Shown: piece after piece, positions 29,507 through 63,032 of the stretch
Numbering within the stretch: position 1 is the stretch's first letter
Layout of the letters: the number at the start of each line of letters is the position of its first letter
Source: Plasmopara viticola
Lineage: Eukaryota > Oomycota > Peronosporomycetes > Peronosporales > Peronosporaceae
NCBI GenBank assembly: GCA_001695595.3
Contig: MBPM02000028.1
Location: forward strand, 186,001-250,000
DNA: 64,000 nucleotides
Reading direction: 5' to 3'
Position numbers and translations under genes: made by a program
The notes under the pieces: generated by a model
Database searches by the model: none
What the model saw: the letters and a program-made list of their open reading frames with translations, nothing else
Told to the model about the DNA's origin: nothing

Positions 29507-29564
29507 CCGTTGAACAAAATTGCTTGACATCCTTAAATCGACATAAACAATTCATAATTGCTCA

Positions 29565-31900
29565 CGATTGCCCCATCACCCAACAAGTCAGGCTTGCAAG
29601 CCTGATCCGTGTTGTAATACATGGACTCCTTTAGAGCTAAGCCCCGTCGATCTCTATGTCCCCCTAAATACATGGTTTTTAGTCAGCAAAGTGCCCCCGC
29701 TGTCATGTTTGTGTGGCATACTAGCCGACTGGCTATCCACCGGACTTTGATTGTTGTATCTGGCGCATGGAGCACCTCTTCAGTAAATAGCGGATATATA
29801 TCATTATTGCGTTCCCGTATACTAGTGCTTTGAAAGCTCTTCGTTTCTCGTCAGCAAATCTAAATTTCATAGAATCCGGACCGCCTGATTGGCGCTTTGC
29901 TACTGATTGTTCTTAATTCGGTTTCCTTTTCAGCTTTATGTAGCAAAGTTTTGCACTCAGTGAGCGACACAAATTTTAATGTCCACTCAGTCCGTCCCGT
30001 AAAACGTTAATTAGGGTGCTCGCTGGTCGTTCCAGATCCAATATAAGCTGATTTCATCGCTTCAGTACTCAACTCGATTGATCTCGCTCCCCCCGCGTTG
30101 ATCAGTGCGCAGATCGCCATCGGATAAGTACACTGAGATCGGAGTCAATATCGCTTTCTGAAGGAGCCGCTGCGACCACAGCTGTACGCTTGCGCTTCGT
30201 AGCAGGCCTAGTCGCCCCGGGCTTGATCAAGGTCTAGAAATACTTGCTTAATCGAAAGAGAGCTTACCACTGCTGCATCGCCCCCACAGTGTACCATCAT
30301 TTAAAAGTGACCGAATAGCCTGTTTGCTTTCTTCCTTACATATCCTAGAACTTGTCATAAATTGATACCGAACCCTAGCACCAACAAAGTTGCTTCAGCA
30401 AGTAAGAATATGCACATCATAGAGCGCAATTGAATCATACGATATGCCTTCACTTTAAAGGGGCGAGCAAATAGTGGCTCACCATATAATGAGCCTTTTG
30501 GGCAAATGAGGCTTTGGCGAGATATTCAACATTAACAGTAAGGAGAGAACATGTAAATCAGTTACCTTCGCCGAACGTTTGACACCAATCTTTGCTTTTG
30601 GAAAAAAAAATAGTTGGAGCACCACGAGCACTCCAACAAACACTCGCCTGGTCTTTCACCAATTGAGGCAGTAAAAAGACTTAGAAGTTGCGACAAAGCT
30701 GTTTAATCGGCTTTTCCAAATGTGGTACACTTATCACTTGACTTAACAATCATAAAAATGGCCTCGCCCGTCAAGCGGCAGAAGTGCAATAGCTATTGCT
30801 TAGGAAGCGTGGAAGGAAGTCTTCAAACTTTGTTCTGTGCTTAGAATCAACACAAGTCGCACATTGCTATCTGTCTGAGTGGAAGAGTTACTATCAGTCT
30901 TAATATTTTGACCTGAAAAAAATATAGGACTCACTTGAGTCTATCCATTAAATGGTACGTGTTAGCTAGTGGTCACTATACCATGTATAGATTTTCTGTT
31001 AGCTCCTTAGAGTTGGTTACTGCTTTCTTGTCAGTGTTCAAATATTCCTTCACTTGTGCTACACAAACTGGTGGCACCTTTCTCTAGAGTGACGCACATC
31101 GGTGTCGTCTTGCTCCATAATAATTCCCCCATCAAGACTTTGGATCTCCAAAGCCCACAGAATAAATACTTCATATGGAAATTGTTGACGAATAGACATC
31201 TCCGTTATAAGAAGTATGCACTACAGATGCGTGAGCCTTAGATCTATATGACTCTGTCACCGATGTATCTTGTCGTCCGCTCTGGAGCATTGTCAAGGCC
31301 CGACTTAGCAATTAGTTTTTGACACATACCAAGCGCAACGCGTACGAGTATTAAGGTACGCTAAGCCGTTAAAAAGTAACTCAGCTTCTTATAGCTCACA
31401 CCTGTGACGCATGCGTCGGTCATCCTATGCTCATAAGCAAGCCTTACAGTCGACTTCTGCCTGCCGTCCTCGAAATGAAAAGCGAAAATGTAAGCGCACC
31501 TCTCAGCAATGTCCACACCCTTTTCGTGAATCTTCTATTCTGATTTTCATGCCGAGACGTAGTAATTTTCGTTTGGCGGTACACTCTATGCGTGGTTCTT
31601 ACCCAGGCATCATCCTTGCGATCCCGACCGCGTGCTCATGAGCGACCATTGTGCCTCATGTAATTCGCGCCCTCTACGAAAAGCTGCTTCGATCAGAGGT
31701 TTGGTATATAATAGATAGTTAATTAAAATTCGATGGAGTGCAATACGAAATGCATGACAGCAGAACAACCGTCACTTTAATTTAATCACGAGCCTGCTGA
31801 AAATTGACGCCCGACAAGTCAGCTGCAACCACACCAGAGACTACACTGGGTACCATGGGTGCCTATAGCCTTGACGTTCTGGCAGCGACAAGCGATTCAC
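29565..31900 (+). other. Block U copy plus gene-free stretch
   Basis: Block U (29,565-29,780) is followed by the GATCGCCATCGGATAAG...GATCGGAGTC block at 30,113-30,150, which in E2/E3 lies about 300 bases before the effector; here no effector follows. From 30,300 to 31,900 I see no conserved gene. The 76-codon basic frame at 31,411-31,641 (KRKCKRTSQQC) is unrecognised. Confidence 0.45.
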
Positions 31901-34900
31901 GTACATCCAGGTCCTTATATTTTCACAAATCCTCCTGTGTGCTTGTTTGATGGATTTAATTGCGGAAGACAAATTTACCCGCCCCTATGATACTCAAGCC
32001 TTACACATGTTCTAAGGACACAGCAAAAGGCAATTCGATGCTGGAAAAGAAAGACAAAGAGACTGTACTCTTTCCCTGAAATTGCAACTGCTTTAGCAAG
32101 GTCAATGTCGATGCGTTCTGTATCTAGGTGGTTGTAAGCGCGTTTATCTGGCAAGCCTCTCTAACGGCGCAGAAAAGTAAACTTACTTTTACGAGCCACT
32201 CTATGGGAATTGCACAAAATCAGGCTTTAATTTCGTCAAAGTTCTCCTTCTATGCATGGGAGTCGACGTGGTGCCGTTCTTATGTATGAATTTTACGCAG
32301 AATATTTTAGAACCAATTTAACCTCTTGGCGTGCACATCGATTTGACGGAAACGCCAGAGGCAAGTCTAATGCGACATAAAGTTAAGATGCCAGACGAGT
32401 CCCGAGCACCGTTAGAACGATGCAGCGCGCAAAAACTGCCAAGGACAAATACATTCCAGATCGTGCAAGTAAAGGGACAACGCAATTAAGCCTAAGGCGA
32501 TAAAGCCTGCTTTAAAGCGCAAGTTCTAGACTGTGAAGCGATAGCGTCTCCGATCTAAATATAAGGTAATTCGTTGGCGATCTTTGCAAAATCATCGCCG
32601 AAGATGCGGCTGGGCCAGCTTGATACTGGAGCGAATAAATTCGATATCGATGGATCAAGAACTCTCAGCGAAGTACTTGATTCATGTTCCACGACCCTCG
32701 CTGATACAAAGACATCTAACATTGCTCTCATTGAGCGTAAAGAATCGTTACAAAAAGTCGAGCTTTGTGTCAAAGCTTGCTTTCCATTAAACTAAAGATT
32801 TTTGGGGTTTAGTGCTCAACAGGCATCCTATTGGTCTCCACGCCGATTTGCGTACTGATAAATATTTTTGGATACGTGAGCGGGTGTATATCAGCTCAGG
32901 GAATTTATACCCGTCATCTGGGGGAGAGGCGTCCCTTGCGCCAATATCAAGATTTGAGGAACTAAAATCGTATGGTCAACAGCCGTCTGGATGGCTGTAA
33001 GGCTTCGTCAATACCCCAAACCGTGAGCTGCCTGCTGCTGGAGAAGAACTACCTGTGATTCTGTAGGGGAAACTGTAGGTCATCAGGCCTTATCTCTGCT
33101 GGACACCGTGCTTTACAAAAAATGTCATGCTTGTTAGCCTGGATTGCTGGTCAAGGAAACCCGTTATTACTTTAATCAACATGGACTGTTTTTACCGACT
33201 CGAGGGCGTCATGCAATGACGTTCAATAAAAAAATGTCAGATGCATGGTGGGGCTCTACGAGCTCGCTTGCGTGGCATTAAAAATGCTTTGTTAAACACA
33301 GAAGCGAGTATTACTAAACCTATGATTTCAGTAAATCTTTCCTCGACTCTATTATAGTCGAACACAGAAGTTGAACCTAGGAGCGAGATATAATATCATT
33401 TTGAGGAAGAGTAGCTGAAGCGCCAAGATTCCTGATTTTATAAGAGGACAATAACCTTAAATGCCACTATGGACCATTTTTTTACTGAAACAAGAAGCGC
33501 TATCGGCGCGGTCCTTTCGAAGAGCTGAAGCGTCTCACGGCCTCAGAACAGTCTCCCTAAGCATGCGCGGACGGCACATAGCCATTACTTAGTGATTATC
33601 CTGCTCCGCAAAACTTTTGCACACAACTACAACCGCATTCACTACTCGGACGTGCACATGCTCGATCAAAAAGGTCAGCTGGGCGAATTGAATTTTCGTT
33701 ACTACCAAGTGTTTCTTTGGTGTATTAGATTGCGGAAAAAGACTACTTGTGGTCCATGGGCGAACACAATTGAAGGGAAAAAAAGAGCAAACTTTGGCAC
33801 AGAGTCGAACAAAGTCCTGAGGTGCCGCGATCCGGGATAAATTTGGCTTGAAATTTATTAGCACCTGCACATAGCAGTTCGCAACGAAAGTTCGAAGCTG
33901 CTTATGCAAATTGCTAACAAATTTAAATATCGAATGGGCGGGCGAACACAGCGTGAACCGTAGCTGGTTAAAGTGTTAGATGCTAAATGAACACCGTAAG
34001 TTTAATGATTTAAATCGGAACAAAAGCATCGAGCGACTCTTGCAAAGCCCCTTATACAGATAAATAGTAGATTTTGAACCAAGGGGGTAAAGACGCGGCC
34101 CTGACACCATGTGTGAAGTCTCACGTTATATACTGAGCTGCTCGCAGAGTACGGCCATTGCTGCATGCTTCGTTGGCTTCAAACTAAGGCATCACAAGCG
34201 AGGCCTTGCCGTTGCATATTAAGCACGAATTGCTCTTACTGCACATCATGCAAACATGACTAGCGGTAAGGCAAAGAATCTTGATGCACACGTAGTCCAC
34301 TAAATTCAAATCTTGCCATGAACTCACTCACTGCAAGCAAGGTATGATTGGCTGTAGTCCGTGCAATGGCAGCAACGCACTAAACTAACCCCATGCGCGG
34401 ACTTGTACCGGCCAAAACAAATCTCGACACCGGACTCGAGGACGAAGCAGCTCACCTCTTCCGTAATTTCCAGGATACATACGTGCCCAATGCAGGGCCC
34501 TTCGAATGTACTCACGAAGTACAACTGAGGATCCTTTGCGGCAGGCTATGGTCTTCAGGGACACCCTGACAATGCACTTGACGTGATATGAAGCCCACTG
34601 AACAGTTCGTCGTGGATACTCTTTCTGCTTGTCCGACTTGATAATGTCAGTTCAAGGCCAAGATATTTGAAAGTAGCATCCAATTCTCGGAGTGGGCCCT
34701 AGTAAGCCCAGCTCTTCGTTGAACGTCAATACAACTATCGATCGTCTGGGGTACGATCGTAGATGCGCAAATTTGACACAGTAAGGCTCGTCGAATATGT
34801 CATTATTGTCAAAAATAAGACACCAACGCGTAACGCTTTAAGAGCAGCGTAGGGCGTCTCATTTTTGGACGGAAAATTTACGGAGCAGATCTGTCGGTAA

Positions 34901-35340
34901 ATGACGAACGCGCTCGACTGTATGCCCTTGCTCCGAGCGGTATCGGTATGGTCGGATATAAGACAGGTCTGGAGACACTTTATTTAAAAATTGCTTAGCC
35001 CGAGCTCTACAGAAAAGAAAGATGCATGTAATTTCGACACTAAAGCAGAAGTAGTGATCATACGACTCAATGTAAAGATCAACTTTGTATTACTATTGGG
35101 TGAAGCGGTCTTAGAGATGTAATTTAGTCCAAGGAGTGGTGCTACGATCCTCGGGGGTCTATTTTGTCCTAAGGTAAACGAATGAAGTAGGTCGTGTTTA
35201 TAATTGTGTTAAAAAAAACAGAATGTTATCGTTGTACTTTACAATACGGTAGGTAAAGTATTGCAATTTCAAAAGTGCGGTGCGAAAGAAAAAATTGTTG
35301 CCATCAATTGGTCCAGTCTAAAAAGATAATATAATCATAT
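31900..35340 (+). repeat. Inverted relative of the E1 upstream arm (1.44-4.2 kb)
   Basis: Reverse-complement collinear with the E1 upstream region (anchors listed there), so an effector would be expected on the plus strand just after 35,440. Short frames inside (for example 33,589-33,909 minus, 34,324-34,524 minus) have no counterpart in the E1 arm and are not called genes. Confidence 0.65.
35307..35315 (+). promoter_or_regulatory. Orphan effector promoter box A
   Basis: ATTGGTCCA in the context CCATCAATTGGTCCAGTCTA, identical in part to the E1 and E4 promoters, at the right end of the inverted arm. No box B, signal peptide or effector frame follows. SINE-like DNA starts within about 80 bases. 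The effector has been deleted or replaced. Confidence 0.6.
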
Positions 35341-35344
35341 TGCT

Positions 35345-35373
35345 CCAGCATTCTCTCTATCGCGGAATGCTGG
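35345..35373. repeat. Small hairpin between orphan promoter and SINE
   Basis: Nine-base perfect arms (CCAGCATTC / GAATGCTGG) around an 11-base loop. It may mark the break point. Chance is possible. Confidence 0.45.
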
Positions 35374-35389
35374 TAGCTATGTGACCCAT

Positions 35390-35645
35390 ACTGGGACCGG
35401 GTTCCGTAACCCTCGTTACATTATGGAGCCTTTTCGGTCATTAAGGCGTCCAGCCCACTCAACTCTTGTATTACCCGGTCGGGCGCGAGTTGGTAGGGCA
35501 GTCACACACTCGAAAGTGATTGCTCGTCCACTTTAGTGACCTGTCTCCGGCTGCCCTAATTTGAATCTTATGGGTATCGTACCAGGTACTTCCCGGTCCT
35601 GAGTCAGCGGCTAATCACTCGAGCCACAAAGTCGGTTGAAGGAAC
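35390..35645 (-). mobile_element. tRNA-derived SINE-like element
   Basis: On the minus strand the sequence begins GTGGCTCGAGTGATTAGC (A-box-like, plus 35,611-35,625) and, about 28 bases after it, has GGTACGATACC (B-box-like, plus 35,573-35,583). This is the spacing and order of an internal RNA polymerase III promoter. The body that follows is GC-richer than its surroundings, ends near 35,390, and has no ORF. The cloverleaf is not complete, so it reads as a tRNA-derived SINE rather than a tRNA gene. I cannot see a target-site duplication with confidence. Confidence 0.45.
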
Positions 35646-35666
35646 CTATAGAAAAGATGGATCCTG

Positions 35667-35999
35667 GTGCACGACGGGTACGTTATAAGTATTACAACTG
35701 GTACGCAGAATGAGATATTAAAGAAAGGAAATTTCAGTTCCTCTTTTATTGGGATAGCAATGTTTTGGTGCTTACAATGGATTATACGCAGAGAACATAA
35801 AAATTTCTTTGGTGGTGCTATTCATGCACCATACTCATGTGAGCTGCACACTTGCAAGACATTGTGCAAGACGGTGTGTCGTACACCGCGTGCTCGTGAT
35901 TTCAGTGTACCCTACCCGTTTTACGATCAAATGCTAGTGCCCGATGAGCTAAAGCTCAGATGTGCCCAATACTTTATCACCTTAATGAAGCGCGAATGA
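35667..35999 (+). CDS. Unrecognised ORF, up to 110 codons
   Basis: An open frame without an ATG at its left end (the first codon of the open stretch used here is GTG), so a eukaryotic start would be internal or supplied by splicing. The C-terminal half is Cys-rich (CELHTCKTLCKTVC) and ends CAQYFITLMKRE. No signal peptide and no domain I know. It follows the SINE-like insert at the place where an effector is missing, but it shows none of the effector motifs. Possibly a transposon fragment or chance. Confidence 0.2.
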   Translation: MHDGYVISITTGTQNEILKKGNFSSSFIGIAMFWCLQWIIRREHKNFFGGAIHAPYSCELHTCKTLCKTVCRTPRARDFSVPYPFYDQMLVPDELKLRCAQYFITLMKRE

Positions 36000-36179
36000 A
36001 TGAAGTGTAGGTACAGTAGCCTCACCCTCGCTTGATATTATATTTGCGGACAAACAATCAAATTATGCGACTGCGATCGCTCTACAATTTGTGTCGACTA
36101 CGCTTTTCGGTTTTAAGACGATAAAGCCGTGATTTGAGCTCACTTCGAGGTCCTGAATGACCGCTGTAGAATTAACACT

Positions 36180-36370
36180 CATGGAAGCATAATGCTGTGG
36201 ACCATAGGCTTTAGGATGATAGCTTGTCGGTAGTCAGCGACTAGTGTTTAACCGAGCATACCAGTATCGAAGGCATTGATAGTGACCCCGCTAAAGCAGT
36301 TGCTAAGTCTTAGCATTTACTTTCACCCCTTGTACTTTCTTACTTTGCGATTTGAATGCCTTTTTTCAGA
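36180..36370 (+). pseudogene. Decayed relic, 'ENxAHxxM' family, copy 2
   Basis: The DNA around ATGCTGTGGACCATAGGCTT and the CCTTGTACTTTCTTAC block (36,330) parallels 41,430-41,570. Frames are broken by several stops. It shows only that the relic family was duplicated with the unit. Confidence 0.35.
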
Positions 36371-39264
36371 CATTTTACGAGGCTTAAGTACGAAATAACG
36401 CAATTTTAGCTCTCGTTTACCGCTCTTTACAGCCGCAAAACGAGCACACACGATTTTTCGTGCAAAGTTGACGACAGTTTGTCTCTAAGAGCTGCGCGAA
36501 CCTCACCTCGAGGCCGAAGCTCAATTGCTACAGACACTGATCACTATGTAAATAAGCGTCTACAACGCCAAGTTAGTCTCACCAAATCGAAGCCTCAGAT
36601 TCCCAATAACTATCGGAGTACGATACGCCCCTTACTTTACAAGATACTGAAGTCGACCCTAGTGACAGCGTAGCGCGAATAATGCACGCCACGTGGTTGT
36701 GGTGCTTGCTCTGTCGATCAAGGAGAAGAAAAGAAGGACAATGGCTTAGCATCATGCGGTGTATTGGACGCTCTTCGCTATGATTTGGCTCGCAATTGGC
36801 TTCTGGCGGACGCAAGTCAAGAGCTGACTGATCGTAACGCCGATGGTCTCGACTGTCTTCTCCAAGAAATGCACTGATACGGCGGCTCCTCAATTTTGAA
36901 TTCTTCTCTTGCCAGTGCTCGAGCGGAATTTAAATATTGTACCCTTAAGAGGCTCACGAATTACCGATTGCCGGTCATCAGGGTCGAGAAAGAATGTTTT
37001 ACTTGGAAAACTCCAACTGTTGGCGACCCAAAATTAAATAAGTTGGTAAAATGGTGCGAACGTGCGAAGTGTGGCAACAAATTAAATTTCTACCAAATGC
37101 GGCCGCACCATTGTTAAGCTTTCCGGTGCCATTGCACTGCTTGATATCCATTAGTCGAGCTACATGCGCTCGGCATGTCGAACGCCTCGGCAGGATACAC
37201 GAACTTTTTCAACTGATGAAAAAAAGCTCTTTTAACGGCCGTGTTGGACACAATTGACGGTGACGCAATAGCAACTCTGTTTCGAGGCTATGTCCTTAAG
37301 TTGATGGACACTTGGACTTATTTTGGCTCCGACAGAGACTCCCGCTTTGCGAAATTTTTAGATGAGCAATCCGAAAGCTGATAAGGCGTATTCACAGCAT
37401 GCCATCCGTTAATTGATGGTCAGACAGAGCGAGAAGACTGCGTCGTCCAAGACGCATCTTACAGTGTGTGCACGGATTCTCAAAGACGCATGAGTGGCGT
37501 GCACGCACATATCGAATTAGAGCCAAATTCCTGCAACCAATTCTGCGCTGAAACTAATGGTGACTCACGCAAAAAGCTGGCTGATCTCGCCTACCTACGT
37601 TTATCACGCGACCACGCAAGCTCAGCCATACCAACGACGACCTGGCTGTACTTACACATACTTAGCCGCCAGTACGCAAATAAAAATAACTGAATGTACC
37701 GTTTAAATTTAACAGCCATGGCATATGACGCTTTTTGAGCACAAAAACAGCAGGTCATTGACAATGCGCAGCTTAGACCTGTTGAGCTTATTGATGTGCG
37801 TGTTGCTTGCATTCGGGAAATTGTTTTCGGACTTGACACTGCAAGTCGGGACTCACAGGATGGAGCGCGCGACGTACGCATTGATGGGGAACCTAATGAC
37901 CTTAACCCGCTTTCATCGAAGTAGGACCTGAAACGTGCCGTCTTCTTTGAGACATTGTCAAGGCCTTAGATTAAAAACTTGGAATTGTTTTGTATACACA
38001 TGCACACGCCTCTCTGTCTCTGCCAACCCACTAACTGGAACCGCGAAGTCGTGTTTTCCAAAATTTGGTACTGCGTGGTTGGGGTACGGGTAGACTCTTA
38101 CGTGAACCAAACAATGTAATATATACCTCAACAGGCTACACGCCTTTGTTTTCATTAGCCTTCGCTTTGACTAAGCGCTACCACTTTGTGATTCTAGGCT
38201 TGATAAAAAAGAATTGGCTTTGCGGCTTGCTGATAGTAGCTCTCCCACAATGCGCACGCAATACAAATACTCTAAGTAGACTTAGTACGTGCGCAACAAA
38301 ATCGCTATGAAAACATATACACAAATTTTAAACATACATAAGGTTGGAGACTATGCATTGATAATTGCCAAATGACAAGGTTTTGCTAGAGCTTCGATGG
38401 ATACTTTGAGAACATAACAAACTGAGGTTTAGTGCATACGCTTAGTTTTCCTAAAAGTTTGCGAACAAACCCAGTGTAGTATTAAGACTTTCTTTAGCCG
38501 TATTATGACTCGAAGTAGATGAATGTAGAAGTATTAGTCATTATGAGTGCAATGGTTTCACAGAGTGGTGCAATGACGTACATGTAATTTATAAGCTTTG
38601 TTCTAGATTTCTGGCCCTACAACCAACCATACCTCACAGGACAAATCATGACGATCGCTGCTGAATAAATTACGTGTGCATCGTCGGGAACTCGCTTTTG
38701 CTGCTTTGACCTTCAGCTAGTCATACTCGGTATGGTGTGCAGCAAGCGCCATTGGAAAAACATGTGCGTCGACAACGCCTCGTACATGACGCCTTGGCTA
38801 CGTCGCTGACGGCTGGCAGCAAGCGCTGCACTCTACGAGCACTGCTCAGTGTTTTACGTGAGACTTTACACATAGTGAAAGAGCTTCGCTTGTTTCAACG
38901 TGCCTAGAGCCATCCATGTCATCTTTGACCGCTCCGCTTGCATATCTATGTGTTCTTTCACGTTCTGGACGTGGCGTGCCTGATTTTTATTGACTGATTG
39001 TATCCAGCACCATGCCAAAAGCTCTTCTACTTTTTATCTTCGACGGGCTCAACATTCGCTACAGCTCTTTTAAAGTGTTTGAACTTCTATCAATCCAGAT
39101 TTTTTGTTGCTCCAGCCACAGCATAATCTGAATGGTGCCATTGGTTCAAGCCCAAACAGTGCTCGACACATCAAAGTTTGGTTAGCAACAAATGCGTTAA
39201 CGTGTTTGACTGACTCACGCAAGAAAAAAAAGGTTGTACGCGTTCACCATTCATGGTTTGTTCA
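36371..39264. other. Gene-poor stretch with repeat fragments
   Basis: Contains relatives of the 8.1-9.06 kb tandem (about 36,690-36,870), the TGCGAAC/GTGCGAAG...GCGGCCGCACCATTG block (37,051-37,140; relatives 22,285-22,360 and 40,105-40,190), and the GACGCCTTGGCTACGTCGCTGACGG block (38,788-38,812, written in part), which parallels 2,340-2,450 and 29,073-29,180. Small frames (36,896-37,117; 37,466-37,693; 38,065-38,310) are unrecognised and not called genes. Confidence 0.4.
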
Positions 39265-42200
39265 TCAACCAGCAGGCCTGGCATACAACCATATACCGAA
39301 CTAAGACGTTCTTAAGAGCTAAGCTATGTCGACCTTTATCCTCTTTCTACAGCCAGTTCGTCCCCAACTGCCATCCTATCATGCTGTATACCTAACGATT
39401 AATTAACCATAGAATTATGTCTCTCTGAACCTTGACACACTTGACACAAGGTACGTCCCTACCCCCTACGATGGGCATAGTCCATCGACGAATGCTCGTG
39501 ACTGGTCAGTAGATCGAAGGTTACTATCAGTATAACTAGTATCTCCAAAATTCAATGGGTCTGGTCCTTCTTAGCCAGATTCACATTTATTTCGGTGCTC
39601 TTCAAGATCCATCAATACGCACACCAGCACGAATCCGGCAAGGTGTAATTCGCACCTCATTCCTTTCATTGATCTATTAACTTTTATTGCCAAATCACAG
39701 CTTTATGCAACTATGCGACGAGAGAACTGCTGAGAAGTCTTCCGATTAGGGAGTCTAGTGGAACAGTTATAAGGTGTTTCGCTGGATATTGCAGATCCGA
39801 ATTTACTGCCCCGGTATTCTATCAAGTTTATCTTGGTCTACCGGTATTTTTTTTGCACACATCGCCATCATATTTGGATTCGCTCAGATCAGAGTCGCTA
39901 GTGAATCACTGCAATAACAGCCTAAGTCTCTCGCTTAGTAGCAGCTAAAATGGTTATTCGAGTGACATCTCATCATGAGGCCTTCAAGATTTGTTTTCTT
40001 TTAAGGCTTACAATAAATTGCTCAGTGGTACTCTCGGTCGAGAGAGAACTTACGGCTAAAGACCACCCATTGGTGGTGGACCATTTTATAACAGTGTTTG
40101 ATTCATTTGTGCGTACGTGCAAAGTGTATAAACGGATATAATCTGCGTCAAATGCAGCCACACCAGTGTCAAACTTGCCGTGCCATTATGATGCTGTTTG
40201 TTCATTAGTATAGTTTCGCGTCCAGCCTCACGAGTTATTCGCTAAGATAATACGGGTTTTGTCGTCTTTGTCTGAGCAAAATCATTTATTTGGCGGCAAG
40301 ATTGAACATGTCACCACAATAGCTCAGTCAATCAGTCGTGAACCAACATAAAATTCTAATGACACGTGGGCGATAAAAGGCCAGGCATGAAACCTCAAAA
40401 AATGTTCTAGTCGAAAAGGAAAAGGTACATAACGATGAATCAAATAAAGACTTCTAAATTGTGAGAGCGCTGCATTGCATCGTCTAAGGGCATAGTCAAA
40501 ATAGGCTTTACATATATACTTACATTGTTTAAAAGTATGCGAACACATCCAGTAACTTACTTAAGCCAATTTTATTCCGGGTCAAATAAGTGCGGAAGCA
40601 TTAGCACAGGTTAACATAGCAACCTGTGATTTGAGGTAAAATCTATCTTTGGGCACAAAGTGCCACAACTTCTGTCCCGAAGAGAGCGACTTTCTCACGG
40701 AGCGATGCGACTACGTCCTCGAGGCTCAATAATAGGTCAAAGAAGATCCGAAAAGTAGAAGCTACGGTATTGAGATAATGTTATCGCGAATACAACAAAG
40801 GGTTTCGACGTAAAGAATGGACTGCTTCTGGGTTACGTTGGTCAGTCGTGGGTTGAGAATCACATCAAAGCCAAAAGCATTCGGTACGCTGCCTATTATT
40901 GGCTCATTATCATTCTCCTCATATCCTTGACCTTGAAGGCGAGCGCCACCACCACGTAAAAAACGTTTTAGCGCATAATTCCAATTGATAACTTTGGTCG
41001 CCGCTCTTATTCAAGGATGAGAGTGAATTGTCGTCTCTACTAGACCCTCTTCTTCCCTTTTCCCAAATCTGGTGATTTCGTCAATTGTATCCCAGATTGT
41101 CGTTGTTCCAAACGTTGTCGCGACTTTCTTCTTGTCGATAAGCGTGCGCTTTCACATAGTGGTTTTAATCATAAAATTATAGCAGCACTGCCGAAATTGT
41201 TCATTTGCTTCTGATGACAGCGCCAGCTCACTTTCTTACATAGTAAATGGGGTTCAGTACGAAATCTATTATAAGCTTGACTTTCATTTCGGCAGAATTG
41301 ACCTGACATCGTAGATGCTTTTAGTTATTGTGTGTTCCGCTTCACACCACTAGGCACGCTAAGGTCGCGAGCTGTTATTCAGCTCGAGAGATCTTTTGGT
41401 GACTGCTTTGAAAACAATGCCCACAGATGCATGGTGCTGTGGACCATAGATTGCAGGACGACTTCTGGACGACGTGTCATCAGCCGAGCGAACTTGTATC
41501 GAAATTGGCCCAATAAAAGCAGCGGCAAGTCTAACGATCAAGTACAGCCTCTTGTACTTTCTTCCCTAGCAATATAAATGCCTTTTGTTGATCTCAGACG
41601 CTGTCTAAGGCTTGGGCATTACAGGAACGGGTGCAGTCTCGTCACCCTTTAACCGCTCTATATACCTCCAAACGAGCACAAAGGATAATTTGTGTAGAGC
41701 TTACAACCTGGATGTGAGAGAGGTGCTCGTCAATGCCGGAGCTCTAATGTTTGGGAACAAATCAATTTTTGGGGTGCAACGGTTAGTACAATCCTAACTT
41801 TATCTATCCCATTAATTGGGAAAGAGGTTTTTGACTGGTTATGGGGCGGATTTGCCGTTGATAATCCAACATTTAATCGTATTTTCAGTTGCATGTTACC
41901 TTTCCTTTAGTAATTGTTCCATAGGCACCCATGGTACTTAATTTAGTATTTGGAGAGGCCGCAACCGGCTTGTCAGGCATGAACTCATAGTTCATACGTG
42001 AATTTACAATCAAGCGCGGGTTGTTCTGCTACCGCTGCTTTTCTTACTGTAGCGCTCCATCAAAGTTATCAGTTATTGATTACATAATAAACGTTTCATC
42101 AAAGAAGCACTTTTTTGCGGGTAGGGGGACGAAGGGCGTGAGGTACAGTGGTTGCGCACACGCACGCGGTCGGGTGTAGAATGGCGCAGAAAATGTATCA

Positions 42201-42850
42201 CCAAATTTCACCTCTCGGCATGACGTTAAAGCAGAATATTATCAAAATGGGTTTGGACAACATTGGTGGGTGCAATTACGCTTTTCACCCATTTCTGCCA
42301 CGATTGGCGGCCGCAGTCGACCTTAAATCTTGGGTTTAGATCACTTTGAGCGAAGAGTGGCCAACGCACGCGGTACGTGTTTGATCTAGGAGCAGTTGAG
42401 TTACATTTTGACCGCATAGCGAACCTACCTTGGTTTTATCGGAGACTTTGAATTTAAAGTCGTGCTGAAAAGATGACTGTCTGACAACGCACTAACTGCA
42501 AACAATAAGGCATTTCGGTGGCGTAGTCACGCGAACCTAAAGCGCATCCACTTTGTTTCATAGGCTTCTGTGTAGCGGCACAAGTCGTAACGGCGATTTT
42601 AAGTCGACATGAAATTTAGTATAGCATTGCTTGTATGGGCTCAGGGAATGCTAAGTCGTGATAAGGGGATTGTAGTGAAGCTACACGAATTCGGCGTGCG
42701 TCAATGTAGTTGACGGTGTCACCAATATGTGTGGCACAAGTCAAGATACGTTTCGAACACCAATAAGAAAGCAGTGATCGATTCTGAGGATCCAACAAAA
42801 GAATTGCACATGGTGTTTTGATAACTAGTAAGTGTACATCATTACAATGA
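39265..42850. other. Block U copy, AT-rich DNA and relics
   Basis: Block U at 39,265-39,460. A GATCAGAGTCGCTAG block (39,887-39,901) corresponds to the one before E2/E3, again with no effector after it. A 9-base-arm hairpin (CACAGGTTA / CAACCTGTG) lies at 40,606-40,630. The remainder, including 40,630-41,300 and 41,800-42,850, has no supportable gene. Confidence 0.4.
41332..41577 (+). pseudogene. Decayed relic, 'ENxAHxxM' family, copy 3
   Basis: An 81-codon frame with LERSFGDCFENNAHRCMVLW then TIDCRTTSGRR. It aligns with the minus-strand frame at 7,829-8,095. After TTSGRR the reading shifts: the counterpart of REIVSKSLID in copy 1 is found in another frame (SELVSKLAQ). Unknown family, broken. 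Confidence 0.35.
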
Positions 42851-43950: not shown

Positions 43951-44104
43951 TGAAAGTGGTTGGTCATTTTGTGACTCATTTTCATGGCCCCACTGAGCTT
44001 ATGCACAGGCATACTTAGATGGTAGTCGTCCAGGGCACGGGAAGGCGAAAGCAAATATCACACATTGTCCATTTAAGCGCGGCGTTATCATGCATACGCA
44101 CGAA

Positions 44105-44900
44105 CAAGATTTAGGCCGATGCAAATTAATGCATCATCGGACTAGCTATACTGACAAGCACGGCCTTCGAACAGTTCGCGCAAAGGTCAATACCAATGTG
44201 AATCGGAGGGAAAAAGTAGTTTTCAAAGATGAATTGTAGCGGCCTGGTCTTAATACTGACATGCAAAAGTTAACACCAAATTGCGCAGAAGTGACTAAAA
44301 CACCTTCTAATTTTCTCAATAAGGGCAAAAAAGATCTGCGAAAAACACCAGAAGACGATTGACAGAATCAAGGGTAGCCTGTCACAGTCTTGCAAATCCA
44401 AAATCCATTAGTTGTCGTCTTGAAGCGTCCTATTTGGCCAGCAGCACTGACTACTGCATCTAGACGCAGAGGGACGAGATCGAGTGGTTGCGCTTAATCT
44501 CGGCTGCTCCTGGCTACTGTCCTTTATAGGATAGAGAACTACTTAAGATGAAATATTCTCCCGTTGAACACAGGTTTCTCCGATCTATGCAGACAATGCG
44601 TCACTACTCATTGTAACACTGTTGCTTTTCCTCTCGTATAAAATAGCCAAGTGAATCTCCCCGTTTTGGAGTATAGGCTTAAGGTGAGATAAGCAAATTG
44701 TTTTGGCCGATGCATACATGTGCTGCCAAAATATTCAACATCATTTGTCAAGATTGCGATCTTATCCGCATCAATGTTGCTTATTTCTGCTAAAAGCTTT
44801 AAATGCTAGAAGCGAGGCTTCATCGGCTCTTGATAAATCCGGGGCTTGTGGATTATAGACAAATCAACTTGATCTCATGCGTGGTTGATCCGAAGAGAGA
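44105..44900 (+). repeat. Direct relatives of 4.39-4.97 kb and 21.9-22.15 kb
   Basis: 44,105-44,650 parallels 4,390-4,970, and 44,670-44,900 parallels 21,895-22,150, so two blocks that are apart elsewhere are joined here. No ORF spans them. The two homopolymer differences between the contig copies (44,659 and 44,841) fall inside. Confidence 0.55.
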
Positions 44901-45155: not shown

Positions 45156-45169
45156 TCGTCGCATCCAAA

Positions 45170-46232: not shown

Positions 46233-46248
46233 CAAAAAGGATGTTAAG

Positions 46249-52058: not shown

Positions 52059-52067
52059 ATTGGTCCA
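52059..52067 (+). promoter_or_regulatory. Orphan effector promoter box A (second copy)
   Basis: Identical to 35,307-35,315 within the duplicated segment. Not independent evidence. Confidence 0.5.
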
Positions 52068-52141
52068 GTCTAAAAAGATAATATAATCATATTGCTCCAG
52101 CATTCTCTCTATCGCGGAATGCTGGTAGCTATGTGACCCAT

Positions 52142-52397
52142 ACTGGGACCGGGTTCCGTAACCCTCGTTACATTATGGAGCCTTTTCGGTCATTAAGGCG
52201 TCCAGCCCACTCAACTCTTGTATTACCCGGTCGGGCGCGAGTTGGTAGGGCAGTCACACACTCGAAAGTGATTGCTCGTCCACTTTAGTGACCTGTCTCC
52301 GGCTGCCCTAATTTGAATCTTATGGGTATCGTACCAGGTACTTCCCGGTCCTGAGTCAGCGGCTAATCACTCGAGCCACAAAGTCGGTTGAAGGAAC
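52142..52397 (-). mobile_element. tRNA-derived SINE-like element (second copy)
   Basis: Identical to 35,390-35,645 within the duplicated segment. It counts as a second insertion only if the duplication is real. Confidence 0.4.
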
Positions 52398-55300
52398 CTA
52401 TAGAAAAGATGGATCCTGGTGCACGACGGGTACGTTATAAGTATTACAACTGGTACGCAGAATGAGATATTAAAGAAAGGAAATTTCAGTTCCTCTTTTA
52501 TTGGGATAGCAATGTTTTGGTGCTTACAATGGATTATACGCAGAGAACATAAAAATTTCTTTGGTGGTGCTATTCATGCACCATACTCATGTGAGCTGCA
52601 CACTTGCAAGACATTGTGCAAGACGGTGTGTCGTACACCGCGTGCTCGTGATTTCAGTGTACCCTACCCGTTTTACGATCAAATGCTAGTGCCCGATGAG
52701 CTAAAGCTCAGATGTGCCCAATACTTTATCACCTTAATGAAGCGCGAATGAATGAAGTGTAGGTACAGTAGCCTCACCCTCGCTTGATATTATATTTGCG
52801 GACAAACAATCAAATTATGCGACTGCGATCGCTCTACAATTTGTGTCGACTACGCTTTTCGGTTTTAAGACGATAAAGCCGTGATTTGAGCTCACTTCGA
52901 GGTCCTGAATGACCGCTGTAGAATTAACACTCATGGAAGCATAATGCTGTGGACCATAGGCTTTAGGATGATAGCTTGTCGGTAGTCAGCGACTAGTGTT
53001 TAACCGAGCATACCAGTATCGAAGGCATTGATAGTGACCCCGCTAAAGCAGTTGCTAAGTCTTAGCATTTACTTTCACCCCTTGTACTTTCTTACTTTGC
53101 GATTTGAATGCCTTTTTTCAGACATTTTACGAGGCTTAAGTACGAAATAACGCAATTTTAGCTCTCGTTTACCGCTCTTTACAGCCGCAAAACGAGCACA
53201 CACGATTTTTCGTGCAAAGTTGACGACAGTTTGTCTCTAAGAGCTGCGCGAACCTCACCTCGAGGCCGAAGCTCAATTGCTACAGACACTGATCACTATG
53301 TAAATAAGCGTCTACAACGCCAAGTTAGTCTCACCAAATCGAAGCCTCAGATTCCCAATAACTATCGGAGTACGATACGCCCCTTACTTTACAAGATACT
53401 GAAGTCGACCCTAGTGACAGCGTAGCGCGAATAATGCACGCCACGTGGTTGTGGTGCTTGCTCTGTCGATCAAGGAGAAGAAAAGAAGGACAATGGCTTA
53501 GCATCATGCGGTGTATTGGACGCTCTTCGCTATGATTTGGCTCGCAATTGGCTTCTGGCGGACGCAAGTCAAGAGCTGACTGATCGTAACGCCGATGGTC
53601 TCGACTGTCTTCTCCAAGAAATGCACTGATACGGCGGCTCCTCAATTTTGAATTCTTCTCTTGCCAGTGCTCGAGCGGAATTTAAATATTGTACCCTTAA
53701 GAGGCTCACGAATTACCGATTGCCGGTCATCAGGGTCGAGAAAGAATGTTTTACTTGGAAAACTCCAACTGTTGGCGACCCAAAATTAAATAAGTTGGTA
53801 AAATGGTGCGAACGTGCGAAGTGTGGCAACGAATTAAATTTCTACCAAATGCGGCCGCACCATTGTTAAGCTTTCCGGTGCCATTGCACTGCTTGATATC
53901 CATTAGTCGAGCTACATGCGCTCGGCATGTCGAACGCCTCGGCAGGATACACGAACTTTTTCAACTGATGAAAAAAAGCTCTTTTAACGGCCGTGTTGGA
54001 CACAATTGACGGTGACGCAATAGCAACTCTGTTTCGAGGCTATGTCCTTAAGTTGATGGACACTTGGACTTATTTTGGCTCCGACAGAGACTCCCGCTTT
54101 GCGAAATTTTTAGATGAGCAATCCGAAAGCTGATAAGGCGTATTCACAGCATGCCATCCGTTAATTGATGGTCAGACAGAGCGAGAAGACTGCGTCGTCC
54201 AAGACGCATCTTACAGTGTGTGCACGGATTCTCAAAGACGCATGAGTGGCGTGCACGCACATATCGAATTAGAGCCAAATTCCTGCAACCAATTCTGCGC
54301 TGAAACTAATGGTGACTCACGCAAAAAGCTGGCTGATCTCGCCTACCTACGTTTATCACGCGACCACGCAAGCTCAGCCATACCAACGACGACCTGGCTG
54401 TACTTACACATACTTAGCCGCCAGTACGCAAATAAAAATAACTGAATGTACCGTTTAAATTTAACAGCCATGGCATATGACGCTTTTTGAGCACAAAAAC
54501 AGCAGGTCATTGACAATGCGCAGCTTAGACCTGTTGAGCTTATTGATGTGCGTGTTGCTTGCATTCGGGAAATTGTTTTCGGACTTGACACTGCAAGTCG
54601 GGACTCACAGGATGGAGCGCGCGACGTACGCATTGATGGGGAACCTAATGACCTTAACCCGCTTTCATCGAAGTAGGACCTGAAACGTGCCGTCTTCTTT
54701 GAGACATTGTCAAGGCCTTAGATTAAAAACTTGGAATTGTTTTGTATACACATGCACACGCCTCTCTGTCTCTGCCAACCCACTAACTGGAACCGCGAAG
54801 TCGTGTTTTCCAAAATTTGGTACTGCGTGGTTGGGGTACGGGTAGACTCTTACGTGAACCAAACAATGTAATATATACCTCAACAGGCTACACGCCTTTG
54901 TTTTCATTAGCCTTCGCTTTGACTAAGCGCTACCACTTTGTGATTCTAGGCTTGATAAAAAAGAATTGGCTTTGCGGCTTGCTGATAGTAGCTCTCCCAC
55001 AATGCGCACGCAATACAAATACTCTAAGTAGACTTAGTACGTGCGCAACAAAATCGCTATGAAAACATATACACAAATTTTAAACATACATAAGGTTGGA
55101 GACTATGCATTGATAATTGCCAAATGACAAGGTTTTGCTAGAGCTTCGATGGATACTTTGAGAACATAACAAACTGAGGTTTAGTGCATACGCTTAGTTT
55201 TCCTAAAAGTTTGCGAACAAACCCAGTGTAGTATTAAGACTTTCTTTAGCCGTATTATGACTCGAAGTAGATGAATGTAGAAGTATTAGTCATTATGAGT

Positions 55301-58300
55301 GCAATGGTTTCACAGAGTGGTGCAATGACGTACATGTAATTTATAAGCTTTGTTCTAGATTTCTGGCCCTACAACCAACCATACCTCACAGGACAAATCA
55401 TGACGATCGCTGCTGAATAAATTACGTGTGCATCGTCGGGAACTCGCTTTTGCTGCTTTGACCTTCAGCTAGTCATACTCGGTATGGTGTGCAGCAAGCG
55501 CCATTGGAAAAACATGTGCGTCGACAACGCCTCGTACATGACGCCTTGGCTACGTCGCTGACGGCTGGCAGCAAGCGCTGCACTCTACGAGCACTGCTCA
55601 GTGTTTTACGTGAGACTTTACACATAGTGAAAGAGCTTCGCTTGTTTCAACGTGCCTAGAGCCATCCATGTCATCTTTGACCGCTCCGCTTGCATATCTA
55701 TGTGTTCTTTCACGTTCTGGACGTGGCGTGCCTGATTTTTATTGACTGATTGTATCCAGCACCATGCCAAAAGCTCTTCTACTTTTTATCTTCGACGGGC
55801 TCAACATTCGCTACAGCTCTTTTAAAGTGTTTGAACTTCTATCAATCCAGATTTTTTGTTGCTCCAGCCACAGCATAATCTGAATGGTGCCATTGGTTCA
55901 AGCCCAAACAGTGCTCGACACATCAAAGTTTGGTTAGCAACAAATGCGTTAACGTGTTTGACTGACTCACGCAAGAAAAAAAAGGTTGTACGCGTTCACC
56001 ATTCATGGTTTGTTCATCAACCAGCAGGCCTGGCATACAACCATATACCGAACTAAGACGTTCTTAAGAGCTAAGCTATGTCGACCTTTATCCTCTTTCT
56101 ACAGCCAGTTCGTCCCCAACTGCCATCCTATCATGCTGTATACCTAACGATTAATTAACCATAGAATTATGTCTCTCTGAACCTTGACACACTTGACACA
56201 AGGTACGTCCCTACCCCCTACGATGGGCATAGTCCATCGACGAATGCTCGTGACTGGTCAGTAGATCGAAGGTTACTATCAGTATAACTAGTATCTCCAA
56301 AATTCAATGGGTCTGGTCCTTCTTAGCCAGATTCACATTTATTTCGGTGCTCTTCAAGATCCATCAATACGCACACCAGCACGAATCCGGCAAGGTGTAA
56401 TTCGCACCTCATTCCTTTCATTGATCTATTAACTTTTATTGCCAAATCACAGCTTTATGCAACTATGCGACGAGAGAACTGCTGAGAAGTCTTCCGATTA
56501 GGGAGTCTAGTGGAACAGTTATAAGGTGTTTCGCTGGATATTGCAGATCCGAATTTACTGCCCCGGTATTCTATCAAGTTTATCTTGGTCTACCGGTATT
56601 TTTTTTGCACACATCGCCATCATATTTGGATTCGCTCAGATCAGAGTCGCTAGTGAATCACTGCAATAACAGCCTAAGTCTCTCGCTTAGTAGCAGCTAA
56701 AATGGTTATTCGAGTGACATCTCATCATGAGGCCTTCAAGATTTGTTTTCTTTTAAGGCTTACAATAAATTGCTCAGTGGTACTCTCGGTCGAGAGAGAA
56801 CTTACGGCTAAAGACCACCCATTGGTGGTGGACCATTTTATAACAGTGTTTGATTCATTTGTGCGTACGTGCAAAGTGTATAAACGGATATAATCTGCGT
56901 CAAATGCAGCCACACCAGTGTCAAACTTGCCGTGCCATTATGATGCTGTTTGTTCATTAGTATAGTTTCGCGTCCAGCCTCACGAGTTATTCGCTAAGAT
57001 AATACGGGTTTTGTCGTCTTTGTCTGAGCAAAATCATTTATTTGGCGGCAAGATTGAACATGTCACCACAATAGCTCAGTCAATCAGTCGTGAACCAACA
57101 TAAAATTCTAATGACACGTGGGCGATAAAAGGCCAGGCATGAAACCTCAAAAAATGTTCTAGTCGAAAAGGAAAAGGTACATAACGATGAATCAAATAAA
57201 GACTTCTAAATTGTGAGAGCGCTGCATTGCATCGTCTAAGGGCATAGTCAAAATAGGCTTTACATATATACTTACATTGTTTAAAAGTATGCGAACACAT
57301 CCAGTAACTTACTTAAGCCAATTTTATTCCGGGTCAAATAAGTGCGGAAGCATTAGCACAGGTTAACATAGCAACCTGTGATTTGAGGTAAAATCTATCT
57401 TTGGGCACAAAGTGCCACAACTTCTGTCCCGAAGAGAGCGACTTTCTCACGGAGCGATGCGACTACGTCCTCGAGGCTCAATAATAGGTCAAAGAAGATC
57501 CGAAAAGTAGAAGCTACGGTATTGAGATAATGTTATCGCGAATACAACAAAGGGTTTCGACGTAAAGAATGGACTGCTTCTGGGTTACGTTGGTCAGTCG
57601 TGGGTTGAGAATCACATCAAAGCCAAAAGCATTCGGTACGCTGCCTATTATTGGCTCATTATCATTCTCCTCATATCCTTGACCTTGAAGGCGAGCGCCA
57701 CCACCACGTAAAAAACGTTTTAGCGCATAATTCCAATTGATAACTTTGGTCGCCGCTCTTATTCAAGGATGAGAGTGAATTGTCGTCTCTACTAGACCCT
57801 CTTCTTCCCTTTTCCCAAATCTGGTGATTTCGTCAATTGTATCCCAGATTGTCGTTGTTCCAAACGTTGTCGCGACTTTCTTCTTGTCGATAAGCGTGCG
57901 CTTTCACATAGTGGTTTTAATCATAAAATTATAGCAGCACTGCCGAAATTGTTCATTTGCTTCTGATGACAGCGCCAGCTCACTTTCTTACATAGTAAAT
58001 GGGGTTCAGTACGAAATCTATTATAAGCTTGACTTTCATTTCGGCAGAATTGACCTGACATCGTAGATGCTTTTAGTTATTGTGTGTTCCGCTTCACACC
58101 ACTAGGCACGCTAAGGTCGCGAGCTGTTATTCAGCTCGAGAGATCTTTTGGTGACTGCTTTGAAAACAATGCCCACAGATGCATGGTGCTGTGGACCATA
58201 GATTGCAGGACGACTTCTGGACGACGTGTCATCAGCCGAGCGAACTTGTATCGAAATTGGCCCAATAAAAGCAGCGGCAAGTCTAACGATCAAGTACAGC

Positions 58301-61300
58301 CTCTTGTACTTTCTTCCCTAGCAATATAAATGCCTTTTGTTGATCTCAGACGCTGTCTAAGGCTTGGGCATTACAGGAACGGGTGCAGTCTCGTCACCCT
58401 TTAACCGCTCTATATACCTCCAAACGAGCACAAAGGATAATTTGTGTAGAGCTTACAACCTGGATGTGAGAGAGGTGCTCGTCAATGCCGGAGCTCTAAT
58501 GTTTGGGAACAAATCAATTTTTGGGGTGCAACGGTTAGTACAATCCTAACTTTATCTATCCCATTAATTGGGAAAGAGGTTTTTGACTGGTTATGGGGCG
58601 GATTTGCCGTTGATAATCCAACATTTAATCGTATTTTCAGTTGCATGTTACCTTTCCTTTAGTAATTGTTCCATAGGCACCCATGGTACTTAATTTAGTA
58701 TTTGGAGAGGCCGCAACCGGCTTGTCAGGCATGAACTCATAGTTCATACGTGAATTTACAATCAAGCGCGGGTTGTTCTGCTACCGCTGCTTTTCTTACT
58801 GTAGCGCTCCATCAAAGTTATCAGTTATTGATTACATAATAAACGTTTCATCAAAGAAGCACTTTTTTGCGGGTAGGGGGACGAAGGGCGTGAGGTACAG
58901 TGGTTGCGCACACGCACGCGGTCGGGTGTAGAATGGCGCAGAAAATGTATCACCAAATTTCACCTCTCGGCATGACGTTAAAGCAGAATATTATCAAAAT
59001 GGGTTTGGACAACATTGGTGGGTGCAATTACGCTTTTCACCCATTTCTGCCACGATTGGCGGCCGCAGTCGACCTTAAATCTTGGGTTTAGATCACTTTG
59101 AGCGAAGAGTGGCCAACGCACGCGGTACGTGTTTGATCTAGGAGCAGTTGAGTTACATTTTGACCGCATAGCGAACCTACCTTGGTTTTATCGGAGACTT
59201 TGAATTTAAAGTCGTGCTGAAAAGATGACTGTCTGACAACGCACTAACTGCAAACAATAAGGCATTTCGGTGGCGTAGTCACGCGAACCTAAAGCGCATC
59301 CACTTTGTTTCATAGGCTTCTGTGTAGCGGCACAAGTCGTAACGGCGATTTTAAGTCGACATGAAATTTAGTATAGCATTGCTTGTATGGGCTCAGGGAA
59401 TGCTAAGTCGTGATAAGGGGATTGTAGTGAAGCTACACGAATTCGGCGTGCGTCAATGTAGTTGACGGTGTCACCAATATGTGTGGCACAAGTCAAGATA
59501 CGTTTCGAACACCAATAAGAAAGCAGTGATCGATTCTGAGGATCCAACAAAAGAATTGCACATGGTGTTTTGATAACTAGTAAGTGTACATCATTACAAT
59601 GATAGACGCTGATGAGGAATAGTTTTCCTTCGAGCTACTGGCCGGTACGCGGGTTTCCGCTGATATTGTTAACCCGTCAATTGTGGTGGAGGTGTCCGCT
59701 ACGCCAATTACAAGGTTTGAGGAACCAAAATCCTGTGGTCAATCAGTCGTTTGGTATGCTACGATTAACCAACAATACCCCCGAAAGCGTGGGACTGCCC
59801 GCTGGGGAAGAACAGCCGGTCGATCTATAGGGAGAAGCTGTGATGTGAACAAGCCTTAGCTATGAAGGACTTCGGGCTTTAAAGAAAAGATCATGCTCGA
59901 AAGTTCGGCTTGCTAGTTGACCAGGCAACCATTAACAATTCAATAACCATGGACCGTTTTTACCGGCTCGAGGGCGTCGGGCAATTCCATTCAATTATCG
60001 AAAGTCGGATGCATGGTAAAGCTCTACAAGCTCGCTAACGTGGTATTAGAGTTTTTGTTAATTACGGGAGTGAGTATTGCTACACCTTATATTTTGGGGA
60101 ATTTGTGTGTTAAAATGCTCGAGTCTGTTATTGGCGAACACGGCTTAGGTTCAGCTCTCGATGCGAGGTATTATTAGGACTTAGCTAAAGCGCCAACAAG
60201 TTCAACTAGTTAAAGATAAGGGGTCTCGGTTGACACCTTGGTGAGTCATAAACATTACTCTATTACACGGAAGAAGTTCTATCGGTGCGATACTGTAACG
60301 AGTCGGCCAACAAGTTGAACGAGATATGAACATTGCTAATTTTGAGGCCACGAGTCGGAACGTTGCGCGGCATGAATTCGCTAAGTGACTCTTGCAAAAA
60401 ATAGTTTTTACGAGGGACTTGAGCCTGGGCATTAAGACGAGGCTCTGTCACCATGTGTCAAGTCTTGCGTAAAATGCTAAGCAGTACTCGTAAAGTACAG
60501 CAATTGCTGCATGCCGTTAGAGGCATGGTTGACTCCTAGTCCAGGCCTCGCGAGCGAGGCCTTGCCGTTGCATACTTAGCACAAATAGAACCTGCTGCAC
60601 ATCGTACAAAGTATAGCTGAGTGAAGCGAAAGCATCAGAGGCGAGGTCCCCACGATACAAACTCAATCCACTGAGCAACATCCGCCATGAATACGTTCAC
60701 TGCTGAAAGTGGTTGGTCATTTTGTGACTCATTTTCATGGCCCCACTGAGCTTATGCACAGGCATACTTAGATGGTAGTCGTCCAGGGCACGGGAAGGCG
60801 AAAGCAAATATCACACATTGTCCATTTAAGCGCGGCGTTATCATGCATACGCACGAACAAGATTTAGGCCGATGCAAATTAATGCATCATCGGACTAGCT
60901 ATACTGACAAGCACGGCCTTCGAACAGTTCGCGCAAAGGTCAATACCAATGTGAATCGGAGGGAAAAAGTAGTTTTCAAAGATGAATTGTAGCGGCCTGG
61001 TCTTAATACTGACATGCAAAAGTTAACACCAAATTGCGCAGAAGTGACTAAAACACCTTCTAATTTTCTCAATAAGGGCAAAAAAGATCTGCGAAAAACA
61101 CCAGAAGACGATTGACAGAATCAAGGGTAGCCTGTCACAGTCTTGCAAATCCAAAATCCATTAGTTGTCGTCTTGAAGCGTCCTATTTGGCCAGCAGCAC
61201 TGACTACTGCATCTAGACGCAGAGGGACGAGATCGAGTGGTTGCGCTTAATCTCGGCTGCTCCTGGCTACTGTCCTTTATAGGATAGAGAACTACTTAAG

Positions 61301-61789
61301 ATGAAATATTCTCCCGTTGAACACAGGTTTCTCCGATCTATGCAGACAATGCGTCACTACTCATTGTAACACTGTTGCTTTTCCTCTCGTATAAAATAGC
61401 CAAGTGAATCTCCCCCGTTTTGGAGTATAGGCTTAAGGTGAGATAAGCAAATTGTTTTGGCCGATGCATACATGTGCTGCCAAAATATTCAACATCATTT
61501 GTCAAGATTGCGATCTTATCCGCATCAATGTTGCTTATTTCTGCTAAAAGCTTTAAATGCTAGAAGCGAGGCTTCATCGGCTCTTGATAAATCCGGGGGC
61601 TTGTGGATTATAGACAAATCAACTTGATCTCATGCGTGGTTGATCCGAAGAGAGATTGCTCTTGGCGGTTTTTGTTGGCCGTGCAAGTTCTTTAGCGCAT
61701 CAGTGTCCGAAAGTAGTCAATTAATAGTACATTAATATATAGGTTGTAAAGTAGCTGATTGATTTTTTATTAACTAATCCTTGCCATCA

Positions 61790-61910
61790 ATTGGTCCAAT
61801 AAGATATCCAGACTCGATTGCCAAATTCACACCACCTACCTTAATTTTTTGCCTGTGAAGAATGATCAATTGATTAATTCTATAATTTTATTGATTGGCT
61901 AAGGAATAGA
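61790..61910 (+). promoter_or_regulatory. E4 promoter boxes (second copy)
   Basis: Box A ATTGGTCCA at 61,790-61,798 and box B ATTGGCTAAGGAATAGA at 61,894-61,910, ahead of the former ATG at 61,925. Confidence 0.5.
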
Positions 61911-61924
61911 TCGTCGCATCCAAA

Positions 61925-62816
61925 ATGTCAGTTACGCGCCTTCAAGTTTCGCCAATTAAGCTCATGGTTAGCATCAGCCTCTACTTCGCATTTGATTAAG
62001 CAGCTGACCATCTCAACAATCCGAGTGATGTCAATTCCAGACCCCACTTAAACCGTCAGCTCTTCCTTAACTACAATAACTCCGCTCTCACTAAAGCTGC
62101 GTTAATGAGCCACGGTGTATACAAGAAGCACAAGGCCGCCAATGACAACATCGACGAGGAAGATTGGGTATTCGCAATGCATTATATCCCATCATTAACA
62201 AATTACAAGGCAAAGAAACTTCGAGTCTTACTGAACCTCTTTTTCAGTCCGATGCCAAGATCGTAAGCGGTGACAAAAAGCTGATTAAGCACCTTCAGGT
62301 GATTACTGAGCGGAATGAAGCACAGGATAGCCAATTGCTTGCTACAATTAGGACATTTCGTGAGGCAGACGATTCATCCGATCAGGCCTTCGGCGACTTT
62401 GAGTCTATTAAACTGTTGGATAACCGAAAATCGGCCGAGGCAGTTTATAAGGAATGGTGTAACAACGAAGTATCTCCATTAGCAGCCGTTGAAACTTTGG
62501 ACCGATCTTTCACCGACAGCAGCCCAAAAAGCCATCGAAATTTCGTGACGCAGGGTCCTGCTTTGCCGTGGCTGTCGTACGTTGGGTATTGTTGGAAGCA
62601 TGACAAAGTCGACTTCAGTGAAGAGGAGTTGTACCAATTCTTTAAGAAAGCGGAATTAGACGTGATGGATATGGCAGAATTGCTATATTACGCACGAAAA
62701 AACGGGTTATTCTTGACAAGATGCAGCGATCGGCAAGTCCCTGGACCGAGGCTTTAAATACTTGTCTTAGGAGTTTAATTCGTGAAGCTGTCACAGTAAC
62801 ACCCTTTTGGCACTGA
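61925..62816 (+). pseudogene. E4: broken RXLR-like effector (second copy, better sequence)
   Basis: The more reliable version of E4. A TAA at codon 25 (61,997-61,999) ends the product within the signal peptide region. The paralogs have TCA or ACA here, so one substitution is enough. A frameshift at 62,156-62,167 separates the acidic patch from the body. From 62,164 a 197-codon frame runs through the W-motif (VYKEWCNNEVSP) and the Y-motif (WLSYVGYCW) to 62,757, where a further shift precedes the LDKM-type end. The E1-like C-terminal part follows out of frame (62,810-62,890) and contains a TAG. The QLLS position reads QLFL. The downstream frame has no signal peptide and starts without ATG, so it is not a secreted effector. 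Confidence 0.82.
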
Positions 62817-62923
62817 CCGAGCAAAGTCAGCATCTGGAAGATTCTTCGCTCGGCGTATAGCTTACGTATGTCGCATTCCGATTCCCTCACGCCACGAAAC
62901 GTAAATTTCATCACATAGACTTT

Positions 62924-62980
62924 ATTACTTGACAGATTTGAAAAATTCCGTCGCGGGATTTTTCAAATCTGTCAAGTAAT
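62924..62980. repeat. Near-perfect 26-bp-arm hairpin downstream of E4 (second copy)
   Basis: Arms 62,924-62,949 and 62,955-62,980. Identical to 46,176-46,232. Here the flank continues beyond the contig break (62,997 onwards), showing the true context. Confidence 0.8.
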
Positions 62981-63032
62981 CAAAAAGGATGTTAAGCAAA
63001 TAATATATGGTCTAAATAGTAAGAGGTTTACA

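Follow-up and report, generated by a model that had tools for sequence, protein, structure and literature searches.

The DNA described here, hereafter the window, is a stretch of 64,000 nucleotides from the Plasmopara viticola assembly GCA_001695595.3 (contig MBPM02000028.1, positions 186,001 to 250,000). It lies on a scaffold of 830,957 bases, C28 (C28:186001-250000), in an assembly of 92,937,831 bases and 358 contigs. The window contains an apparent direct duplication of 16.74 kb, with one copy on either side of a 10-N gap. We conclude, with a probability of roughly 0.93, that this is a single segment written twice: two contigs from one haplotype, sharing 16.74 kb at their ends, were placed head to tail across a gap of nominal length instead of being merged. 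We read it in this way because another contig of the same assembly, C298, carries the segment once, together with both of its neighbours. The features concerned are the following, in window positions.

28868-29506, + strand: left unique flank, also present in C298 (C298:14398-15037), where by BLASTN it is joined directly to the single copy; its boundary with the segment occurs at two places, C28 and C298.
29507-46248, + strand: copy 1, the right-hand end of the upstream contig (the overlap from the left), 99.916% identical to 46259-62996 by BLASTN and reaching the gap.
46173-46235, no strand: inverted repeat with 30-base arms, 93% complementary, and a 3-base loop; it recurs in copy 2.
46249-46258, no strand: scaffold gap, a run of 10 N.
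46259-62996, + strand: copy 2, the left-hand end of the downstream contig (the overlap from the right), beginning directly after the gap.
62997-63386, + strand: right unique flank, also present in C298, where it is joined directly to the single copy and reaches the contig end; its boundary with the segment occurs in C28 and C298.

Copy 1 (29507-46248) is 16,742 bases long and copy 2 (46259-62996) 16,738 bases. A BLASTN comparison of the window with itself aligned them in 16,746 columns (identity, 99.916%; mismatches, 2; gap openings, 5), and agreement of 99.9% across 16.7 kb is far more than chance would give. A preliminary description of the window, made from its sequence, had given the coordinates of both copies around the gap, and these proved right to the base. 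Its count of about seven differences in 16.7 kb was likewise borne out, as was the remark that several are homopolymer lengths: three of the seven are C or G runs, with four bases in one copy and five in the other. The gap is the only run of N in the window and is flush with both copies, the final base of copy 1 being 46248 and the initial base of copy 2 being 46259. The other repeat pairs in the window (BLASTN, E ≤ 1e-10) are strongly diverged, as the same description had noted, with 80% identity for 11497-14644 with 22971-26128 and 72-74% for the rest. In the 154 kb of C28:176001-330000, no repeat pair other than copies 1 and 2 reaches both 800 bases and 90% identity, and no gap other than the one between them occurs.

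The first 1,001 bases of the segment, searched against the assembly, were found twice in C28 and once in C298; the search also returned one 79-base match at 78%. C298 is 32,162 bases long and has zero N. By BLASTN, C298:14398-31770 matches window positions 28868-46248 with 1 mismatch and 11 gap openings, and C298:15038-32162 matches 46259-63386 with 0 mismatches and 10 gap openings. The order in C298, uninterrupted by N, is 639 bases of left flank, one copy of the segment and 390 bases of right flank. In pattern searches allowing up to one mismatch, the counts from which may be lower bounds, each boundary between flank and segment occurred at two places, one in C28 and one in C298. Three starts of the segment were found, preceded twice by the left flank and once by the gap, and three ends, followed twice by the right flank and once by the gap. 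No copy-to-copy junction occurs among these three starts and three ends, a negative that covers the ends found and not a targeted query for such a junction. C298:14398-32162 holds the segment once with both flanks attached, in an assembled path rather than a read, and this comes close to a check proposed in the preliminary description.

These observations bear directly on the possibility that the window holds a tandem segmental duplication of 16.74 kb that is real and very recent, with the sequencing gap at its middle. Older local duplicates (80% and 72-74% identity) with weakly effector-like open reading frames (ORFs) show that local duplication has taken place here before, and C298 could be an assembler collapse of two copies. 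However, the gap would have to hit the copy-to-copy junction exactly, with zero extra bases on either side, and the sequenced end-to-start junction expected of a genuine duplication is absent from the three starts and three ends that were located. The older duplicates have diverged strongly, and an arrangement of the same kind is seen at a second locus, unrelated to this one, on the scaffold C51. A genuine duplication is extremely unlikely.

The assembly is almost certainly the published INRA-PV221 assembly (Dussert et al. 2019, PMC6660063), which is reported there as 92.94 Mb in 358 scaffolds (the abstract gives 359), made from PBcR contigs scaffolded with a FALCON assembly; the mean raw read was 8,072 bases, at 185x. 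For the isolate, the same paper gives 7,952 heterozygous sites per Mb (PMC6660063), a figure that bears on whether the copies could be the two haplotypes of one locus, each retained and then scaffolded one after the other, which would be an artefact of another kind. The copies do differ at seven places, as two haplotypes might. However, about 133 heterozygous sites are expected in 16,740 bases at the published mean, and 2 substitutions were seen (Poisson P for two or fewer ≈ 1e-54, if the region is average), so that divergence at the level of haplotypes was not found between the copies. The remaining differences are insertions or deletions (indels), among them the three C or G runs of unequal length. 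Of the seven sites, C298 shares four with copy 2 and two with copy 1, and differs from both copies at the remaining one; it tracks neither copy, unlike a haplotype. Three sequences are insufficient for a tree, but each of the seven differences is such as independent consensus errors might produce. A locally homozygous tract would weaken the objection from the substitution count, and a tract of this kind at the segment would still leave an artefact and not biology. With only 2 substitutions where about 133 were expected, the sequence comparison favours an overlap within one haplotype. Two haplotypes were rejected for having too few substitutions and are, in our estimate, very unlikely. The preliminary description had offered an overlap, or two haplotypes; of these, the overlap within one haplotype is favoured.

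Beyond its C28 part, the rest of C298 has no match to C28 except short repeats. C298:12001-14395 matches C51:464257-466654, and the alignment of C298:10500-14395 to C51 has 3,899 columns with 0 mismatches and 4 gap openings (99.897%; C298:1-10499 lies outside this comparison). C51 repeats much of the stretch that matches C298, and this further copy stops at 448124, the last base before a 10-N gap at 448125-448134. Near 448124, the two C51 copies align over 3,237 columns with 0 mismatches and 10 gap openings (99.63%). On the far side of the gap, the first 1,057 bases (from 448135) recur at C51:430268, where the alignment has 2,559 columns, 0 mismatches and 1 gap opening. The overlap, observed at both ends, is 17,857 bases long as measured in the upstream copy (C51:430268-448124). 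Judged from these alignments, C51 appears to contain another unmerged overlap, of about 17.9 kb, on the two sides of a 10-N gap. Both gaps seen, in C28 and C51, are overlaps (2 of 2), but the C51 gap was reached via C298, and the two are not a random sample.

Several points weigh against reading the duplication as an unmerged overlap. C298 is an assembled path, in which a true tandem repeat may have been collapsed to one copy, and it is itself suspect because it also carries the join to C51. Removal of redundancy from the published assembly was reported to be efficient, with 1.7% duplicated BUSCO genes (PMC6660063), and such overlap errors should therefore be a minority. In addition, heterozygosity is uneven along the genome, so the figure of about 133 is a mean only and the local value may differ. 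A collapsed tandem repeat is nevertheless unlikely because the copies abut the gap exactly, because no copy-to-copy junction is among the ends found, and because there is a second case on C51. The central claim of the preliminary description, that the duplication is a contig overlap and not biology, is supported by the single copy in C298, the exact abutment, the published method and the case on C51.

The junction within C298 suggests how the overlaps might have arisen. C298 follows C51 sequence until position 14395 and C28 sequence from 14398, and the C51 sequence breaks off some 630 bases inside a repeat, many copies of which were found at 83-88% identity (40 of 424 candidates scored). Two contig ends are close to the junction: the end of the upstream C51 contig lies 666 bases before it, and the start of the downstream C28 contig 640 bases after it. 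The other two are farther away, with the downstream C51 contig beginning 18,516 bases ahead of the junction and the upstream C28 contig ending 17,372 bases past it. We counted 8 indel events of C298 in 1,177 bases at the junction versus 4 in the other 20,486 bases compared, where the 1,177-base stretch was picked after seeing the data, differences with a single counterpart were charged to C298, and the count omits two mismatches at the very junction (global alignment) as well as differences private to one C28 copy (two of copy 2; against copy 1 alone, one substitution and three indels).

The overlap was probably caused by a chimeric join, and one such join would explain the overlaps in both C28 and C51. 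A chimeric join with poor support, linking the C51 locus to the C28 locus, would fork the overlap graph, and the contigs of the true paths would each continue for about one long read (17-18 kb) beside the other. C298 would be the surviving chimeric remnant, and FALCON-guided scaffolding would then set the true neighbours side by side with the shared end untrimmed. PBcR contigs scaffolded with FALCON could yield such joins.

A real and recent translocation would leave traces similar to those of a chimeric join. C298 would in that case hold a very recent C51/C28 translocation junction, present in part of the nuclei or in one haplotype. A search for the reciprocal join with window positions 27600-28900 gave four matches: C28 itself, a tail of 33 bases in C298, and two others that were weak. 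A C51 query across and past the junction gave C51 and repeat copies at 86-90% identity, with no reciprocal join recognised among the 40 scored of 345 candidates, which is weak evidence because the sequence is repetitive. A translocation is very unlikely. If it were true, the breaks and overlaps at both loci would mark a structural polymorphism at a repeat beside an effector-like gene family, and the 16.74-kb tandem copy would still be an artefact.

The inverted repeat at 46173-46235 sits 13 bases before the end of copy 1, that is, of the upstream contig. It is the only locus in the window with a perfect hairpin of 14-base arms (loop of up to 60 bases), counted twice owing to the overlap, and might have helped to end the upstream contig. 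As a general cause of contig ends it was rejected, since the final 1,000 bases of the C51 contig have no such hairpin. A large mobile element was also considered. The ends of the segment are alike when one is reversed (about 13 of 15 bases, by eye). This candidate was rejected, as the segment boundaries are contig ends, C298 continues through both into unique flank, and 28800-46400 has just a single ORF that reaches 120 codons (127).

The older direct duplication at 11497-14644 and 22971-26128 is 3.2 kb long; its copies are 80% identical, and each has an open frame of 297 codons (13443-14336 and 24934-25827, both + strand). Another open frame, of 335 codons, lies at 322-1329 (- strand), and a further related stretch at 45129-45792 (+ strand). 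Near the end of the segment, 45129-45769 is 74% identical to 13403-14038 and occurs twice in the window. Weak RXLR-type Pfam matches, all below the curated cut-offs, were found in three of the four window ORFs scanned, including the open frame 45409-45792; none was found in 322-1329, and two of the three matching ORFs match an unrelated family about equally weakly. An NCBIfam scan of three window ORFs gave no match. One of these three, compared with solved structures, gave one match, to an RxLR effector, with an E value of 0.07, which is not significant. The weak RXLR matches fit an oomycete and prove little. At least one of the seven copy differences lies within the 45129-45769 stretch or its open frame, and the automatic gene models of the two copies may therefore disagree.

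The 16.7-kb duplication is almost certainly not a real feature, and the biology of the region is unchanged by it. The analysis removes a false segmental duplication of 16.7 kb from what is apparently the published reference used for effector gene counts, and indicates a second one there, on C51, of about 17.9 kb. The warning in the preliminary description that counts would be inflated is sound: genes and repeats in 29507-62996 are to be counted once, and in these intervals the copies should be handled as a single sequence in counting genes, calling copy number and mapping short reads. A small leftover contig can both reveal and explain such errors, and C298 led to both of those reported here.

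Among known classes of assembly artefact, two described by Rhie et al. (2021, PMC8081667) are relevant. Like false heterotype duplication as described there, the present case is an artefact of a heterozygous diploid assembly in which one locus appears twice. Unlike that class, in which the copies should here differ by about 0.8%, only 2 substitutions were seen in 16.7 kb. The closer match is to false homotype duplication, of the type described as overlapping sequences at contig boundaries. As in that class, near-identical tandem copies of one locus flank a scaffold gap where two contigs meet, in an overlap-layout-consensus assembly that may also contain an alternative branch. Three of its features were found: copies that reach the gap, one locus and one haplotype as judged at the published mean heterozygosity, and a single-copy path. 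A putative branch lies near the boundary, C298 departing from C28 for C51 at C298:14395-14398, 640 bases from the start of the copy 2 contig, as seen in an assembled contig and not in the graph itself. The overlaps, 16.74 kb and about 17.86 kb, compare with a mean raw read of 8,072 bases, so that the one in the window is about twice the mean length of raw, not corrected, reads. Nothing essential sets the case apart from false homotype duplication; what is particular here is that the putative branch survives, as C298, and apparently links overlaps in two scaffolds.
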